This document shows, piece after piece, positions 34,824 to 47,958 of a stretch of 64,000 nt of DNA. Origin of the DNA: Sediminispirochaeta bajacaliforniensis DSM 16054 (GTDB taxonomy: Bacteria; Spirochaetota; Spirochaetia; DSM-16054; Sediminispirochaetaceae); NCBI RefSeq assembly GCF_000378205.1, contig NZ_KB899415.1:1-64000 (forward strand), read 5' to 3'. The position numbers were made by a program, and so were the translations under genes. Below the pieces are notes generated by a model, which made no database searches, was not told where the DNA came from, and saw only the letters and a program-made list of their open reading frames with translations. Positions within the stretch are counted from its first letter, which is position 1, and every line of letters starts with the position of its first letter.

Positions 34824-35783
34824 TCAGAACTCTTCGCCAAGCTGCCGGATATCCTCGTTCTCTTCGAACAGTGCCGGTGCTTCCGGTATTGGAGTTGAGA
34901 TAAGCTTCTTTGCAATTAATGTCATCGCCCTGCCGAATTGACTATCCGGATGGTTCTGATAAAAAGGACGGCGTTCGATAATGGATCTGGATATTCCTTC
35001 TTCCCGCTTCAGAAATCCGATATACTCCATTTTGATGCCGACATTGCGGGTGGTTATGGAGCGAAGTTTGCTACCGAGTAAAAGGTCCTGGTTGCTGGCC
35101 CCCATATTAAGAACGATCCTCGGGTAGAGCTTGCCCAGCTGGCTGCGGCATTGCTCCGCCGCTTCCTGCGAAAAATCTTCCATCCCGGCCAGAAGATCTG
35201 AAAAATCGTTTCCCGATCCCTCCAGTCGCTCGGTCATAAACTCGGAGATAAAGTTCCGTTCTTCACTTTTGGAGGGAAAGGTGCGGAAGAGAAGTCTGAA
35301 GACCGCAGTCTTTAGAAAGGAATAGGAGCTGAGGATCGCGGTTGTTTCAGGGCTTGTAACGATGAGCCCCGAAGAGGACATAAGGAAAAAATCAACGACA
35401 TTATAGCTGCTGCCGGCTCCCAAATCCAGAAGAACAAAGTCGGCGGTCAGTTGTCCCAGCTCTTTCATGATCTTAAGTTTGCGGAAATAAGGAAGATTGG
35501 CAGTGCCCGGAAGCAGGGCATCACCCGGAATAAGAAAAAGCCTGGGAATCCCGGTATCTACAAGGAGCGATTCCAGAGACTCCGCCTTTTTATAGATGAA
35601 GCTGCCGATGCCTGCATGACGATTTTTGACTCCCAGACAGGTGTGAAGGTTGGAACTTCCGAGGTCGAGATCGACGAGGATGACCGTTTTCCCCAAGGAG
35701 GCGAGGGCTATACCCAGGTTGGCGGTGAAAACCGTTTTTCCGACGCCACCCTTTCCACTGGCAATAGGAATAATTACCTGCAT
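34824..35783 (-). CDS. MinD/ParA-family ATPase (FlhG-like) (319 aa)
   Basis: The deviant Walker A S-G-K-G-G-V-G-K-T lies at residues ~9-17, with V-D-L-D-L-G-S-S-N near 40 and D-F-V-L-L-D-L-G-A-G near 115, the features of the MinD/FlhG branch. The ~320 length and the C-terminal extension after ~200 resemble FlhG/YlxH proteins that control flagellar number and placement, but it lies beside tsaD and apt rather than flhF, so the role is open. No ribosome site precedes ATG 35783; TTGCTT and TATGCT boxes 17 bp apart end 9 nt before the ATG, so its message may have almost no leader. Convergent with tsaD, divergent from apt. Confidence 0.82.
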   Translation of the reverse strand: MQVIIPIASGKGGVGKTVFTANLGIALASLGKTVILVDLDLGSSNLHTCLGVKNRHAGIGSFIYKKAESLESLLVDTGIPRLFLIPGDALLPGTANLPYFRKLKIMKELGQLTADFVLLDLGAGSSYNVVDFFLMSSSGLIVTSPETTAILSSYSFLKTAVFRLLFRTFPSKSEERNFISEFMTERLEGSGNDFSDLLAGMEDFSQEAAEQCRSQLGKLYPRIVLNMGASNQDLLLGSKLRSITTRNVGIKMEYIGFLKREEGISRSIIERRPFYQNHPDSQFGRAMTLIAKKLISTPIPEAPALFEENEDIRQLGEEF

Positions 35784-35866: not shown

Positions 35867-36412
35867 ATGGTGGCTTCTATGAGTGCCACATACGATTTCG
35901 ATGCCGCCATACGAAGAATACCCGATTTTCCCAAACCTGGCGTTCTTTTCTACGATATTACCTCGTTGATTGGAAATGCCGAGGCTTTTGGGGCCGTGAT
36001 TGACACAATGAAGCATCTTTACCAAGGTCGGCGTATTGATGCCATAGCAGCGGTTGAGGCCCGGGGATTTCTCTTTGCCACTCCCCTTGCGTACCTTCTG
36101 AATCTTCCGACAATTCTGATTCGGAAAAAAGGCAAACTTCCCGGAACCACCGTAGAGCGTTCTTTTTCTCTGGAATATGGTGAGGATACGATTCAAATCC
36201 ATCGTGGCGATATCCCCATAGGGGGGAATGTTCTTATTGTTGACGACCTGATTGCCACAGGAGGTACCATCCGCGCTGCGGTGGACCTCCTTCGTGAATC
36301 GGGCGCTTGTGTAAGCGAGCTTTTTTCCGTCATTGGTTTACCTTTTCTTGGCTTTAGGGAGCTTCTTTCCGATTGCAGCATCGAGACATTGGTTTGCTAT
36401 GAGGGAGAATAA
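35867..36412 (+). CDS. apt: Adenine phosphoribosyltransferase (181 aa)
   Basis: It salvages adenine to AMP using PRPP. Conserved pieces: I-P-D-F-P-K-P-G-V-L-F-Y-D-I-T near the N-terminus, V-E-A-R-G-F-L-F-A-T-P-L, R-K-K-G-K-L-P-G and the PRPP loop V-L-I-V-D-D-L-I-A-T-G-G-T. Starts at 35867 or 35879 are both possible. Neither has a ribosome site; TAAAAT ends 6 nt before 35867, which would fit a leaderless transcript, but no good -35 box is seen. Confidence 0.93.
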   Translation: MVASMSATYDFDAAIRRIPDFPKPGVLFYDITSLIGNAEAFGAVIDTMKHLYQGRRIDAIAAVEARGFLFATPLAYLLNLPTILIRKKGKLPGTTVERSFSLEYGEDTIQIHRGDIPIGGNVLIVDDLIATGGTIRAAVDLLRESGACVSELFSVIGLPFLGFRELLSDCSIETLVCYEGE

Positions 36413-44153: not shown

Positions 44154-45330
44154 GGCACTGCTGCTTTTGGCGGTGTTGCTTCTTATTCTCGGAATAACGG
44201 TCGTTTTTTTATACGTTAATACTAGAACCGACGAGATTGCCGCTCTCCGTTCGGAACAGCATTATATTCCTGTGTTGTTTTCCGTTCACGAGGGGGATGA
44301 GCATCTCTTTTCGGAACTTTTTATCTATCATCCGCTTACCGGAAAAGGCGCTTTTTTCGATATTCCGGGAGAACTCGGTCTGATGATACCCTCATTGAAG
44401 AGGATTGATCGTATCGAAACGATTTTTGATCCGGAGCATCCTGATGAATTTCGAAATGCCGTGGCCAAAATGATGGCGGTAGATATTCCGTATCACATCA
44501 TTCTTTCCTATGAGGATCTCGAAGGTGTGGTGGATCTCATGGGAGGTGTTGATCTCTTTATCGCCAATCCTGTTGAATATATGGAGAACGACCAGATCGT
44601 TCTCCTCCCGTCCGGAAGCGTCAGACTTGACGGAGCAAAGGCCGCGCTGTACGGAACCTATCATGATCCCGACGAGTCGGATATTGAACGCATAAACCGG
44701 CGTCAGCGTCTCGCTCAGGCCTTTTTCGGTCGGATGGGGGAAGAGGCTTCCTTGCTTATGGAAGGAAGTGCTGAGAAGCTTTTGCATAAACGTATTTCCA
44801 CCAACCTCAATAGACGGGCCTTCTCTTCCTATCTTGAATCGCTTACTCTCTTTGATGCTGATCGGGTTGTATTTCAACGTATTCTGGGGACGATACGGAA
44901 TGTCGATGGGAAGGAACTTCTGTTTCCTCATTATGAAGGAAAGGTCGTCCGGGAAGCGGTGGAACAAACCCTCGTTTCCATCGCCAGTGAGGAAATCCTG
45001 AGTAATGAAGAGTTGACATTATCACTTGAGATTTTGAATGGCACTTCAAGAAATGGTCTGGCGGGAAGAACCTCTACTGTTTTTAAGGGCTTTGGGTATG
45101 AGGTCGTCGGCATTGGAAATGCACCCGAAACCGAGGTAGAAAAGAGTTATGTCGTCGATCATACAGGTGATATCACAAAGGCTCAGCGGGTAGCGAACCT
45201 TATCAGGTGCAAGGATGTTCGAAGCGCTTCGGAAACATCCCTTGCTTCAACTACCGATAGCGATGTTCTTATTGATGTAACTATTGTTTTAGGAAAGGAT
45301 TTTGATGGAAGATACTGCAAGGAGGAATGA
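44125..45330 (+). CDS. LytR-CpsA-Psr-type membrane protein with LytR_C domain (401 aa)
   Basis: A GTG start is followed by one membrane helix (~residues 11-30) and an extracytoplasmic LCP-like domain, with I-D-R-I-E-T-I near 95, V-D-L-M-G-G-V-D-L-F-I near 133 and R-I-N-R-R-Q-R near 190. The C-terminal ~90 residues (L-E-I-L-N-G-T-S-R-N-G-L-A-G, then D-V-L-I-D-V-T-I-V-L-G) are a LytR_C domain. LCP enzymes attach anionic polymers to the wall in Gram-positives; in spirochaetes the substrate is unknown. It lies between yqeK and rsfS. The catalytic pyrophosphate-binding Arg residues appear kept, but I cannot verify all of them. Confidence 0.78.
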   Translation: MRRKTENSNKALLLLAVLLLILGITVVFLYVNTRTDEIAALRSEQHYIPVLFSVHEGDEHLFSELFIYHPLTGKGAFFDIPGELGLMIPSLKRIDRIETIFDPEHPDEFRNAVAKMMAVDIPYHIILSYEDLEGVVDLMGGVDLFIANPVEYMENDQIVLLPSGSVRLDGAKAALYGTYHDPDESDIERINRRQRLAQAFFGRMGEEASLLMEGSAEKLLHKRISTNLNRRAFSSYLESLTLFDADRVVFQRILGTIRNVDGKELLFPHYEGKVVREAVEQTLVSIASEEILSNEELTLSLEILNGTSRNGLAGRTSTVFKGFGYEVVGIGNAPETEVEKSYVVDHTGDITKAQRVANLIRCKDVRSASETSLASTTDSDVLIDVTIVLGKDFDGRYCKEE

Positions 45331-45331
45331 G

Positions 45332-45670
45332 ATGAAGCGGGCGGCCCTGGCGTTGGCGGAGGAAATCAGTAGCCATAAGGGCGAAAATACGGTCCTCATC
45401 GATTTGACGGGAAAAAGTAGCTGGACGGATTATTTTCTTATTTCGACGGTAAACAGTCTCGGACACCTGAAAGGAATGGTCCGCAATGTGAAAGAGAGAC
45501 TTGCCGAACTTGGAGTAGAACTACTTCAGCGACATAAACGTATCGGCGAAGACGGATGGGAGCTAATCGATTGCGGCTTTTTGGTGATACACCTCATGAC
45601 CAAAGAAATGAGGGATTTTTACGACCTTGAACGACTCTGGTTTGAAGGTGACGTAATTTTCAGGGAATAA
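45332..45670 (+). CDS. rsfS: Ribosomal silencing factor RsfS/Iojap (112 aa)
   Basis: It binds L14 and blocks subunit joining in starvation. The core W-T-D-Y-F-L-I-S-T-V-N-S-L, W-E-L-I-D-C-G-F-L-V-I-H-L-M and Y-D-L-E-R-L-W is diagnostic. ATG 45332 is chosen because AAGGAGG (45319-45325) lies 6 nt upstream; the longer reading from 45302/45305 overlaps the LCP gene and has no such site. It ends the long rplU operon. Confidence 0.93.
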   Translation: MKRAALALAEEISSHKGENTVLIDLTGKSSWTDYFLISTVNSLGHLKGMVRNVKERLAELGVELLQRHKRIGEDGWELIDCGFLVIHLMTKEMRDFYDLERLWFEGDVIFRE

Positions 45671-46127: not shown

Positions 46128-46157
46128 AATCTACGAGATGGCTATAAAACATGTCAA
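46128..46157 (-). promoter_or_regulatory. Promoter of the acidic-protein gene
   Basis: On the minus strand TTGACA (46157-46152), an 18-bp spacer and TAGATT (46133-46128). It overlaps the end of the cheX-like gene and predicts a ~90-nt leader. Confidence 0.6.
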
Positions 46158-46645
46158 CTCTTTTTCGACCATTCTTTTGCCTTTTTTATGCCAACGAAGA
46201 TATTGATCTTTCCGAAGCCGCCGGAAATATCCTGATTGAGGAAATCATCCAGCGCTCTGATGTCGTAAGAAATGTTGGCCCCGATGAGCAGGGTCGGGGG
46301 AGTGATGTCGCATTCGAAACCGTGATCTGCGAGAAGCATCACCGACCTTCCGGAAAGTTGGTTGAGGATCTCGCCGAAGGCTTCCCGCTGAAAGCTTCCA
46401 AAACCTTCTTCACTCTCTTCCATCCCCATATTGGCAAGGACCTTGGAGATGAACGCAACCAGACTTTTTGTATCGGAGCGTAGAAGTAAGAATCCTTGGA
46501 TATCCCCGGTAATACCGATGGTCGCGACGGCCTCACTCGGAGGGTTCATTTCGGGAGCCGCTTTATACGTAAGGTCCGCAAATCCAATTTCATGGAGGAC
46601 CTCTTCGAAGGCTTTTTCAAAAAGCGATAAATGGCCGTTTATCAT
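46154..46645 (-). CDS. CheX/CheC-type chemotaxis phosphatase-like protein (163 aa)
   Basis: The active-site pattern of CheC/CheX phosphatases is readable: E-I-L-N (E-x2-N) near residue 96, followed about 25 residues later by a Pro pair (I-T-P-P-T). Flanking segments G-F-L-L-L-R and F-I-S-K-V-L-A fit the CheX fold. These enzymes dephosphorylate CheY. It lies far from the chemotaxis operon at 56 kb. ATG 46645 is preferred because a perfect TTGACA-17-TATACT promoter ends 7 nt before it; the longer reading from TTG 46681 would start inside the -35 box. The transcript therefore seems leaderless. Confidence 0.78.
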   Translation of the reverse strand: MINGHLSLFEKAFEEVLHEIGFADLTYKAAPEMNPPSEAVATIGITGDIQGFLLLRSDTKSLVAFISKVLANMGMEESEEGFGSFQREAFGEILNQLSGRSVMLLADHGFECDITPPTLLIGANISYDIRALDDFLNQDISGGFGKINIFVGIKKAKEWSKKS

Positions 46646-46652
46646 GCCCCTC

Positions 46653-46681
46653 AGTATAGGTTGATACGAAGAGCGTGTCAA
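46653..46681 (-). promoter_or_regulatory. Promoter of the cheX-like gene
   Basis: On the minus strand TTGACA (46681-46676), a 17-bp spacer and TATACT (46658-46653), followed by 7 nt and then the ATG. Its -35 box is back to back with that of ispE, separated by 1 bp. Confidence 0.8.
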
Positions 46682-46682
46682 A

Positions 46683-46711
46683 TTGAACTAACGCATGGTA
46701 GCGGTTATACT
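46683..46711 (+). promoter_or_regulatory. Promoter of ispE
   Basis: TTGAAC (46683-46688), a 17-bp spacer and TATACT (46706-46711), followed by 7 nt and then ATG 46719. The predicted start of transcription falls on or next to the ATG. Confidence 0.75.
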
Positions 46712-46718
46712 ATCGATC

Positions 46719-47627
46719 ATGACACTGACCATAGAGGCTCCGGCCAAGATAAATCTTCACCTGCAAGTTGGAAAGCTTCGTTCAGACGGTTATCATGACC
46801 TTCTCAGCTTAATGCACCTCGTCGATCTTTCAGATAGGGTGAGCCTGCGGACGGAAGGAAAAAGGGGAACGGTGGAACTTGAAGGGGATTTCGACTGTCT
46901 GAAGAAGGACAATTTACTGTATAAGGCTGCTTCGGCCTATCTTCGAGAGAGACAGAAGAGGATTCCGAACGCTCCCCCGGCTCCTGGTTTGACCATTTCC
47001 TGTTTGAAAAGGATCCCGGCGGGGGGGGGGCTCGGAGGGGGATCATCCGATGCCGCTGCGCTATTAAAGCTGCTTGAGCGTTTTTTCGGGGCTTTTCCCG
47101 AAAGGGGGGGGCTTGATGAGATCGCCCTTTCTTTGGGGAGCGATGTTCCTTTTTTCCTCCACACAGGGGCCGAGATAGCTCAGGGAAGGGGCGAGGTGCT
47201 CGAACCTGTGGAACCTCTTCCCGCTTATCCACTTGTGCTGGTATTTCCCTCCTGGAGAATTTCAACCCCCGATGCCTATGCCGCGATCGATAGGTTTAGG
47301 CTCGAAAAAGCGGATCATCCCCGCTTCCTTTCCCCCGGGCAACTACGCGAAGCATACCGCAGGCCTGTTGCCCAATGGCCTTTTTTTAACGATTTCACCT
47401 CCCCGGTTCTCTTGCAGTTTCCCGAATCCCGTGACCTCCTTTTACGGTTGCAGGACCAGGAAGCCCTCTATTCGCAGATGTCGGGAAGCGGTTCCACCTT
47501 TTTCGGACTCTTCGGTGAGGAAAAAACGGCCCTTTGGGCCTTTGAAAGGCTAAAATCCATGGGCTATCGTTGTCATCTTGGAAAAATGCTTGCGCGCCCG
47601 TATGACCCGGTTTACAATGGGCGATAA
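46719..47627 (+). CDS. ispE: 4-diphosphocytidyl-2-C-methyl-D-erythritol kinase IspE (302 aa)
   Basis: A GHMP kinase of the non-mevalonate isoprenoid pathway. A-P-A-K-I-N-L-H-L lies at the N-terminus, the ATP-binding P-A-G-G-G-L-G-G-G-S-S-D-A-A near residue 105, L-G-S-D-V-P-F-F near 143 and S-G-S-G-S-T-F-F-G-L near 260. The start at 46719 rather than 46695 is forced by the promoter. The ATP loop is encoded through a run of ten G, followed 70 bp later by a run of eight; both keep the frame intact. spoVG follows 31 bp downstream, a pairing also seen in Firmicutes and Borrelia. Confidence 0.93.
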   Translation: MTLTIEAPAKINLHLQVGKLRSDGYHDLLSLMHLVDLSDRVSLRTEGKRGTVELEGDFDCLKKDNLLYKAASAYLRERQKRIPNAPPAPGLTISCLKRIPAGGGLGGGSSDAAALLKLLERFFGAFPERGGLDEIALSLGSDVPFFLHTGAEIAQGRGEVLEPVEPLPAYPLVLVFPSWRISTPDAYAAIDRFRLEKADHPRFLSPGQLREAYRRPVAQWPFFNDFTSPVLLQFPESRDLLLRLQDQEALYSQMSGSGSTFFGLFGEEKTALWAFERLKSMGYRCHLGKMLARPYDPVYNGR

Positions 47628-47658: not shown

Positions 47659-47958
47659 ATGGAAATTACTGACATTCGCATCAGGAAACTTGGTTCCGAC
47701 AGCAAGTTGAAAGCGTATGTGACGATTACCTTCGACGATTGCTTTGTGGTACACAATGTAAAAATCATCGATGGGAAGAATGGTGCTTTTATTGCAATGC
47801 CGAGTAGAAAAACCAGGAGCGGTGAATACAAGGATGTCGCACATCCCATTAATTCCGACTTCCGTGGGCGGCTGCAACAGCAGATTCTTGATGAATATGA
47901 ACGTGTTTTGGAGAGCGGTGAGGATGTCCCTCATTACGAAGACGACGAAAGTCTTTAA
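47659..47958 (+). CDS. spoVG: SpoVG regulatory protein (99 aa)
   Basis: M-E-I-T-D-I-R-I-R-K-L and V-K-I-I-D-G-K-N-G-A-F-I-A-M-P-S-R-K-T are the conserved SpoVG segments, and H-P-I-N-S follows. In Borrelia and Firmicutes the protein is a site-specific DNA/RNA-binding regulator. The tail is short and acidic. GGAGG precedes the ATG. Probably co-transcribed with ispE. Confidence 0.95.
   Translation: MEITDIRIRKLGSDSKLKAYVTITFDDCFVVHNVKIIDGKNGAFIAMPSRKTRSGEYKDVAHPINSDFRGRLQQQILDEYERVLESGEDVPHYEDDESL

Follow-up and report, generated by a model that had tools for sequence, protein, structure and literature searches.

Back-to-back promoters and predicted leaderless starts of a CheX-like gene and ispE in Sediminispirochaeta bajacaliforniensis

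How do the messages of two divergent genes begin when only 73 bases separate their start codons? The question arises from a locus in the window, the stretch of 64,000 nucleotides of Sediminispirochaeta bajacaliforniensis DSM 16054 analysed here. A CheX-like gene (46154..46645, minus strand, 163 amino acids) starts there at ATG 46645-46643 and ispE (46719..47627, plus strand, 302 amino acids) at ATG 46719. With a probability of about 0.8, we attribute the arrangement to back-to-back housekeeping promoters that would give two leaderless mRNAs, a minority mode of initiation conserved for the CheX-like gene. Sequence geometry, enrichment and conservation were observed directly; from them we infer the actual start sites and leaderless translation.

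Genes and promoters in the 73-bp spacer

The CheX-like protein scored above the Pfam cut-off for the CheX domain (PF13690, 1.2e-11, 45 bits against 27). It also carries an E-x2-N motif, which we take to be the active-site motif of CheX phosphatase, and the two residues concerned, E92 and N95, were invariant in 12 aligned members. Domain and motif are thus shared with the CheX family of CheY-P phosphatases, whereas the gene belongs to a separate, putatively leaderless branch and its phosphatase role is putative. The ispE product was assigned by its GHMP kinase domains and the N-terminal PAKINL, presumably the N-terminal motif of IspE; IspE relatives were found in 41 of 60 genomes, and a search of E. 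coli with the ispE DNA gave no match. On the far side of the CheX-like gene, rsfS (45302..45670, plus strand, RsfS 1.5e-24) converges on it. Downstream of ispE lie a gene for an L25-type ribosomal protein and spoVG (47659..47958, plus strand, SpoVG 2.8e-38), which in contrast to both divergent genes has a GGAGG Shine-Dalgarno (SD) site. An Rfam search returned tRNAs only.

The CheX-like gene is preceded by TTGACA-17-TATACT-7-ATG on the minus strand, with the −35 box at 46676..46681, the −10 box at 46653..46658 and the 7-nt discriminator GAGGGGC at 46646..46652. On the plus strand ispE is preceded by TTGAAC-17-TATACT-7-ATG (−35 box at 46683..46688, −10 box at 46706..46711), and the seven nucleotides before its ATG read ATCGATC. 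A single base, 46682, separates the two −35 boxes. An earlier note on this DNA had described TATACT boxes 7 nt before each ATG, 17-bp spacers and −35 boxes 1 bp apart, and every one of these distances checked. None of 20,000 shuffles of the spacer gave both promoters at the observed strength; a plus-strand promoter with up to three mismatches appeared in 0.5% of them and a minus-strand one with at most one mismatch in 0.01%.

A −10 box ending 7 nt before the ATG on both strands would place the transcription start at or next to the start codon. Since the spacer is nearly all promoter, each message should indeed begin almost exactly there. No usable SD site was found at either start. That neither gene has a ribosome site, as the earlier note put it, held for ispE; before the CheX-like ATG, however, stands the directly adjoining, G-rich GAGGGGC. 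With a gap of 1-3 this is too close for a usual SD site, and it would not be transcribed if the message starts at the ATG. The discriminator is predicted to be untranscribed, or to leave a leader of 0-2 nt. The spacer was identical in a sister species of the genus in which the flanking genes differ, an identity that carries little weight because the two species are too close.

A second in-frame ATG (46695..46697, plus strand) lies within the ispE promoter spacer, and the open reading frame list starts ispE there, which would add eight residues. This is likely a false start: we prefer the short form, MTLTIEAPAKINL, beginning at 46719, on the assumption that it has the usual IspE N-terminus. Both ATGs also occur in the sister species, so that the DNA alone does not decide the start. 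The case of 46695 against 46719 illustrates how easily start codons of leaderless genes can be misannotated.

Leaderless starts as a minority class

Gene calling covered the complete contig of 176,769 bases, 400 kb from the sister species and, from each of four further spirochaetes, 100 kb. The calls came from a simple caller of our own rather than from annotation, and first genes are transcription-unit starts as judged by position. Promoters with up to three mismatches were counted when 6, 7 or 8 nt separated their end from an in-frame start, and the expectation was taken from other distances. On this contig 11 of 66 first genes had such a promoter against 1.9 expected (Poisson 5e-6), and in the sister species 14 of 163 against 3.7 (3e-5). 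Two further samples gave 10 of 59 against 2.6 (G027) and 6 of 41 against 0.9 (G029), while the remaining two of the six showed no significant enrichment at this threshold (G035, 2 of 37; G028, 2 of 43). Operon-internal genes on the contig (0 of 72) and first genes in two stretches of E. coli K-12 totalling 100 kb (0 of 45) had no promoter at this position. In whole genomes of 60 relatives, the strict pattern TTGACA-N16-18-TATANT-N6-8-ATG occurred 323 times, compared with 154 for N12-14; by genome, 47 were up, 6 down and 7 equal.

The tail of the 16S rRNA retains the anti-SD sequence CCTCCT. Together with the position-specific enrichment, this identifies leaderless starts as a minority mode beside normal SD use, and we regard this as a well supported, real class. 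The earlier suggestion that leaderless starts are common in this genome has to be narrowed to such a minority, with an excess of about 9 of 66 first genes on the contig and about 10 of 163 in the sister-species sample. It had called for a genome-wide search for −10 boxes 6-8 nt before starts; our count on the contig gave a sharp peak at this distance among first genes. Among its individual examples satD (SatD family) was a strong case, with TTGACA-18-TACAAT-6 before GTG 18302, a start 12 codons inside the longest open reading frame. The MinD-like gene (34824-35783) and the apt-like phosphoribosyltransferase gene (35867-36412) did not pass a promoter filter of up to four mismatches. A promoter scan that was not tied to genes proved too noisy, with no clear peak in this genome or its sister; matches inside genes hid the signal, and the scan was limited to first genes of called genes for this reason. 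As a separate observation, one leaderless-type promoter recurs without change on six contigs of genome G025 (C4, C7, C23, C37, C64 and C65), probably as part of a mobile element present in several copies.

Leaderless genes are not new to spirochaetes. Of the 18 spirochaete genomes surveyed by Zheng et al. (2011, PMC3160421), 6 had predicted TA-led (leaderless) genes, which made up 3.9% of genes on average. Like the CheX-like gene and ispE, such genes lack an SD site and have a −10-like signal, about 12 bp ahead of the start. The survey gives percentages and, in its accessible text, names neither a gene that is leaderless across spirochaete families nor back-to-back pairs. In Leptospira interrogans, likewise a spirochaete, differential RNA-seq gave about 440 mRNAs whose UTR is shorter than 10 nt (PMC5243855); leaderlessness was measured there and is predicted here. 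The accessible text of that paper reports sigma-54 motifs and no other promoter motif, whereas the housekeeping motif was clear in our case. A survey of nucleotide bias placed Spirochaetes at a mean of −3.25 on a component tied to leaderless or S1 signals (PMC5397173), which, as far as its accessible text goes, tells against a dominant leaderless role.

Conservation in the CheX-like group and at the divergent locus

A profile of 12 CheX-like members was searched over 394 genomes of the class, and the combined searches gave 46 members with a readable start (L214, whose start lies off its contig, was dropped). A member was counted as leaderless when its promoter had up to four mismatches in the two hexamers together, with A2 and T6 required in the −10 box, and when 5-9 nt separated the end of that box from a start close to position 1 of the profile. 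This applied to 40 of the 46, all with distances of 6-9 nt (19 at 6, 18 at 7, 1 at 8 and 2 at 9), and the count was unchanged when only the profile-predicted start was used. At two mismatches or fewer, 31 of 46 remained, against 0.1 expected from shuffled upstream DNA. An SD scan of the 40 found no site. Their −10 box was most often TATACT, as at our locus (18), followed by TATAAT (7), TATAGT (5), TATATT (5) and others (5), and eight start with GTG. The variable −10 letters and the GTG starts indicate that the position was kept though the letters changed. The proportion was 14 of 17 among members from the search of 60 relatives and 26 of 29 among those added later.

The 40 span 15 family codes, which are internal labels (f1, f5, f6, f8, f17, f19, f23, f24, f26, f29, f30, f34, f35, f39 and f42); the case in f8 (L179) is a weak match with three mismatches. 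Five of the six remaining members are SD-led (L176, L177, L219, L222 and L232, from f28 and f32) and L180 fits neither class clearly, so the trait can be lost. Canonical, chemotaxis-type CheX sequences, a sample from the many more that matched in the 394-genome search, formed one strongly supported branch of 20, in which none was leaderless and 19 were SD-led. The tree came from a quick search and has many long branches; the boundary of the CheX-like group hence rests mainly on this canonical branch. It is well supported by these comparisons that the putative leaderless start of the CheX-like gene is an old property, conserved across the class in many spirochaete families. In genome G021, where ispE was not found, a minus-strand leaderless-type promoter beside cheX (L175) leads to an ATG with TGA as the very next codon; it may be left over from the promoter of a gene that was lost.

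The CheX-like gene and ispE diverge at 21 loci of seven family codes, and two of these loci come from the genus of the window. The starts are 66-266 bp apart, less than 146 bp in 19 loci and at most 98 bp in 11. Among the 21, the 1-bp gap between −35 boxes was found in the window's genus only. Inspection by eye showed −35 boxes overlapping in TTGTCAA in G108 (L215:400-472), where the CheX-like ATG and an ispE GTG are 66 bp apart, boxes 8 bp apart in the f39 pair G115/G177, and gaps well over 20 bp in f24, f17 and f42. Judged from these sequences, the locus often takes the form of a compact divergon, and the precise placing of the −35 boxes is not conserved.

Two other divergent pairs on the contig are leaderless by promoter position on both sides. 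At L148:16868-16962 the starts are 94 bp apart, and the plus-strand gene reads, we presume, like coaD (MLKAMFPGTFDPPTNGHLNL). At L151:6903-6963 they are 60 bp apart, with the best-scoring promoters of the two strands interleaved. An excess of double-leaderless pairs is not claimed (3 of 14 on the contig against about 1.1 under independence, with 8 leaderless among 28 genes).

For ispE, the count took one locus per genome from the 41 genomes that had a match. A promoter with up to three mismatches ended 5-8 nt before the start in 11 and 9-12 nt before it, giving a short leader, in 10; the other 20 had no leaderless signal (7 SD-led, 11 neither, 2 with no start found). A predicted leaderless or near-leaderless start is common for this gene (21 of 41) but labile. 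An IspE scan of genome contigs returned mostly matches from other phyla and was left out of these counts. In genome G002 of the same family (L008), ispE diverges from a gene whose product is a small acidic protein of 83 amino acids, and the intergenic DNA contains a TTGACA/TATACT promoter ending a few nucleotides before an ATG.

Alternative explanations and proposed mode of expression

Chance matches or AT-rich composition are a most improbable origin of these promoters. Hexamer matches are generally easy to find, and the scan not tied to genes lacked a clear peak in this genome, but such an origin is contradicted by the spacer shuffles and the position-specific backgrounds, as well as by the paralogous CheX control with none of 20 leaderless. 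We also think it quite unlikely that the visible promoters are decoys or secondary, with ordinary leaders coming from other promoters and start sites elsewhere. GAGGGG before the CheX-like ATG and the upstream in-frame ATG of ispE might be read this way. Any promoter further upstream would, however, fall inside the divergent gene, and a near-consensus promoter at a fixed distance in 40 of 46 CheX-like members, with no SD site in these 40, is hard to reconcile with decoys. A downstream alternative start with an SD-like 4-mer was present in just two of the 40 (L174 and L233).

The earlier note had further supposed that the two genes are expressed in competition: the −35 boxes would be so close that a polymerase at one blocks the other, and the pair would act as a regulatory switch. 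The 1-bp gap here, the overlap in G108, the 11 of 21 loci whose starts are no more than 98 bp apart and the interleaved promoters of L151 would all suit this idea. We nevertheless find it doubtful. As the −35 gap varies, with starts at least 103 bp apart in f24, f17, f26 and f42, competition was not accepted as a conserved device, and in six of seven tight f23 loci ispE had no clear leaderless promoter. In phage lambda the promoters PR and PRM lie about 82 bp from each other and can be occupied by polymerase together, a precedent that also speaks against exclusion. A 2026 study of E. coli bidirectional promoters sharing a −10 box, which are tighter than the cheX-ispE spacer, described little competition at basal activity in all five tested, although it can arise once one side is strengthened (PMC12825309). 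Both systems have divergent transcription from compact DNA and potential polymerase interference. The E. coli promoters, however, have one shared −10 box, with divergent start sites on either side of it or within it, commonly 10, 18 or 23 bp apart, whereas our locus has two complete promoters, with separate −10 boxes 47 bp apart and predicted start sites about 74 bp apart; as far as its accessible text goes, that study does not count divergent promoters as bidirectional when they are separate. Polymerase competition is possible in the tightest cases; interference at the cheX-like/ispE locus would more likely be a by-product than conserved control.

Two leaderless messages from back-to-back promoters thus remain our preferred reading. 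The 73 bp would consist almost entirely of two complete promoters of the housekeeping (sigma-70) type. On each side RNA polymerase would begin transcription at the ATG or no more than about 2 nt away from it, and ribosomes would take up both mRNAs at the 5' AUG without an SD site. Leaderless initiation is on this reading a normal minority mode of the genome, which has also retained SD-led genes and an anti-SD tail of the ordinary kind. The single base between the −35 boxes would be a compaction at the level of the genus that the lack of leaders made possible.

A more far-reaching proposal is that leaderless translation of the CheX-like gene is under selection: its mRNA would be meant for translation by intact 70S ribosomes at times when ordinary 30S initiation is in short supply, as in starvation, with ribosomes silenced by the RsfS protein encoded next to it. 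We regard this as unlikely. If true, a phosphatase of the CheX type and the state of the ribosomes would be linked throughout the class.

A literature search found no paper joining CheX with leaderless expression and, judged from the listed results, none on leaderless ispE. Leaderless genes as such are known from spirochaetes; what seems new is their conservation over such depth in a single gene. What our data add is one gene whose putative leaderless start was kept over great divergence, against a paralogue that is SD-led. With this contrast across families, the question of selected or inherited leaderlessness can be addressed directly, and the CheX-like gene may serve as a concrete, testable case for whether the trait is selected or merely inherited.
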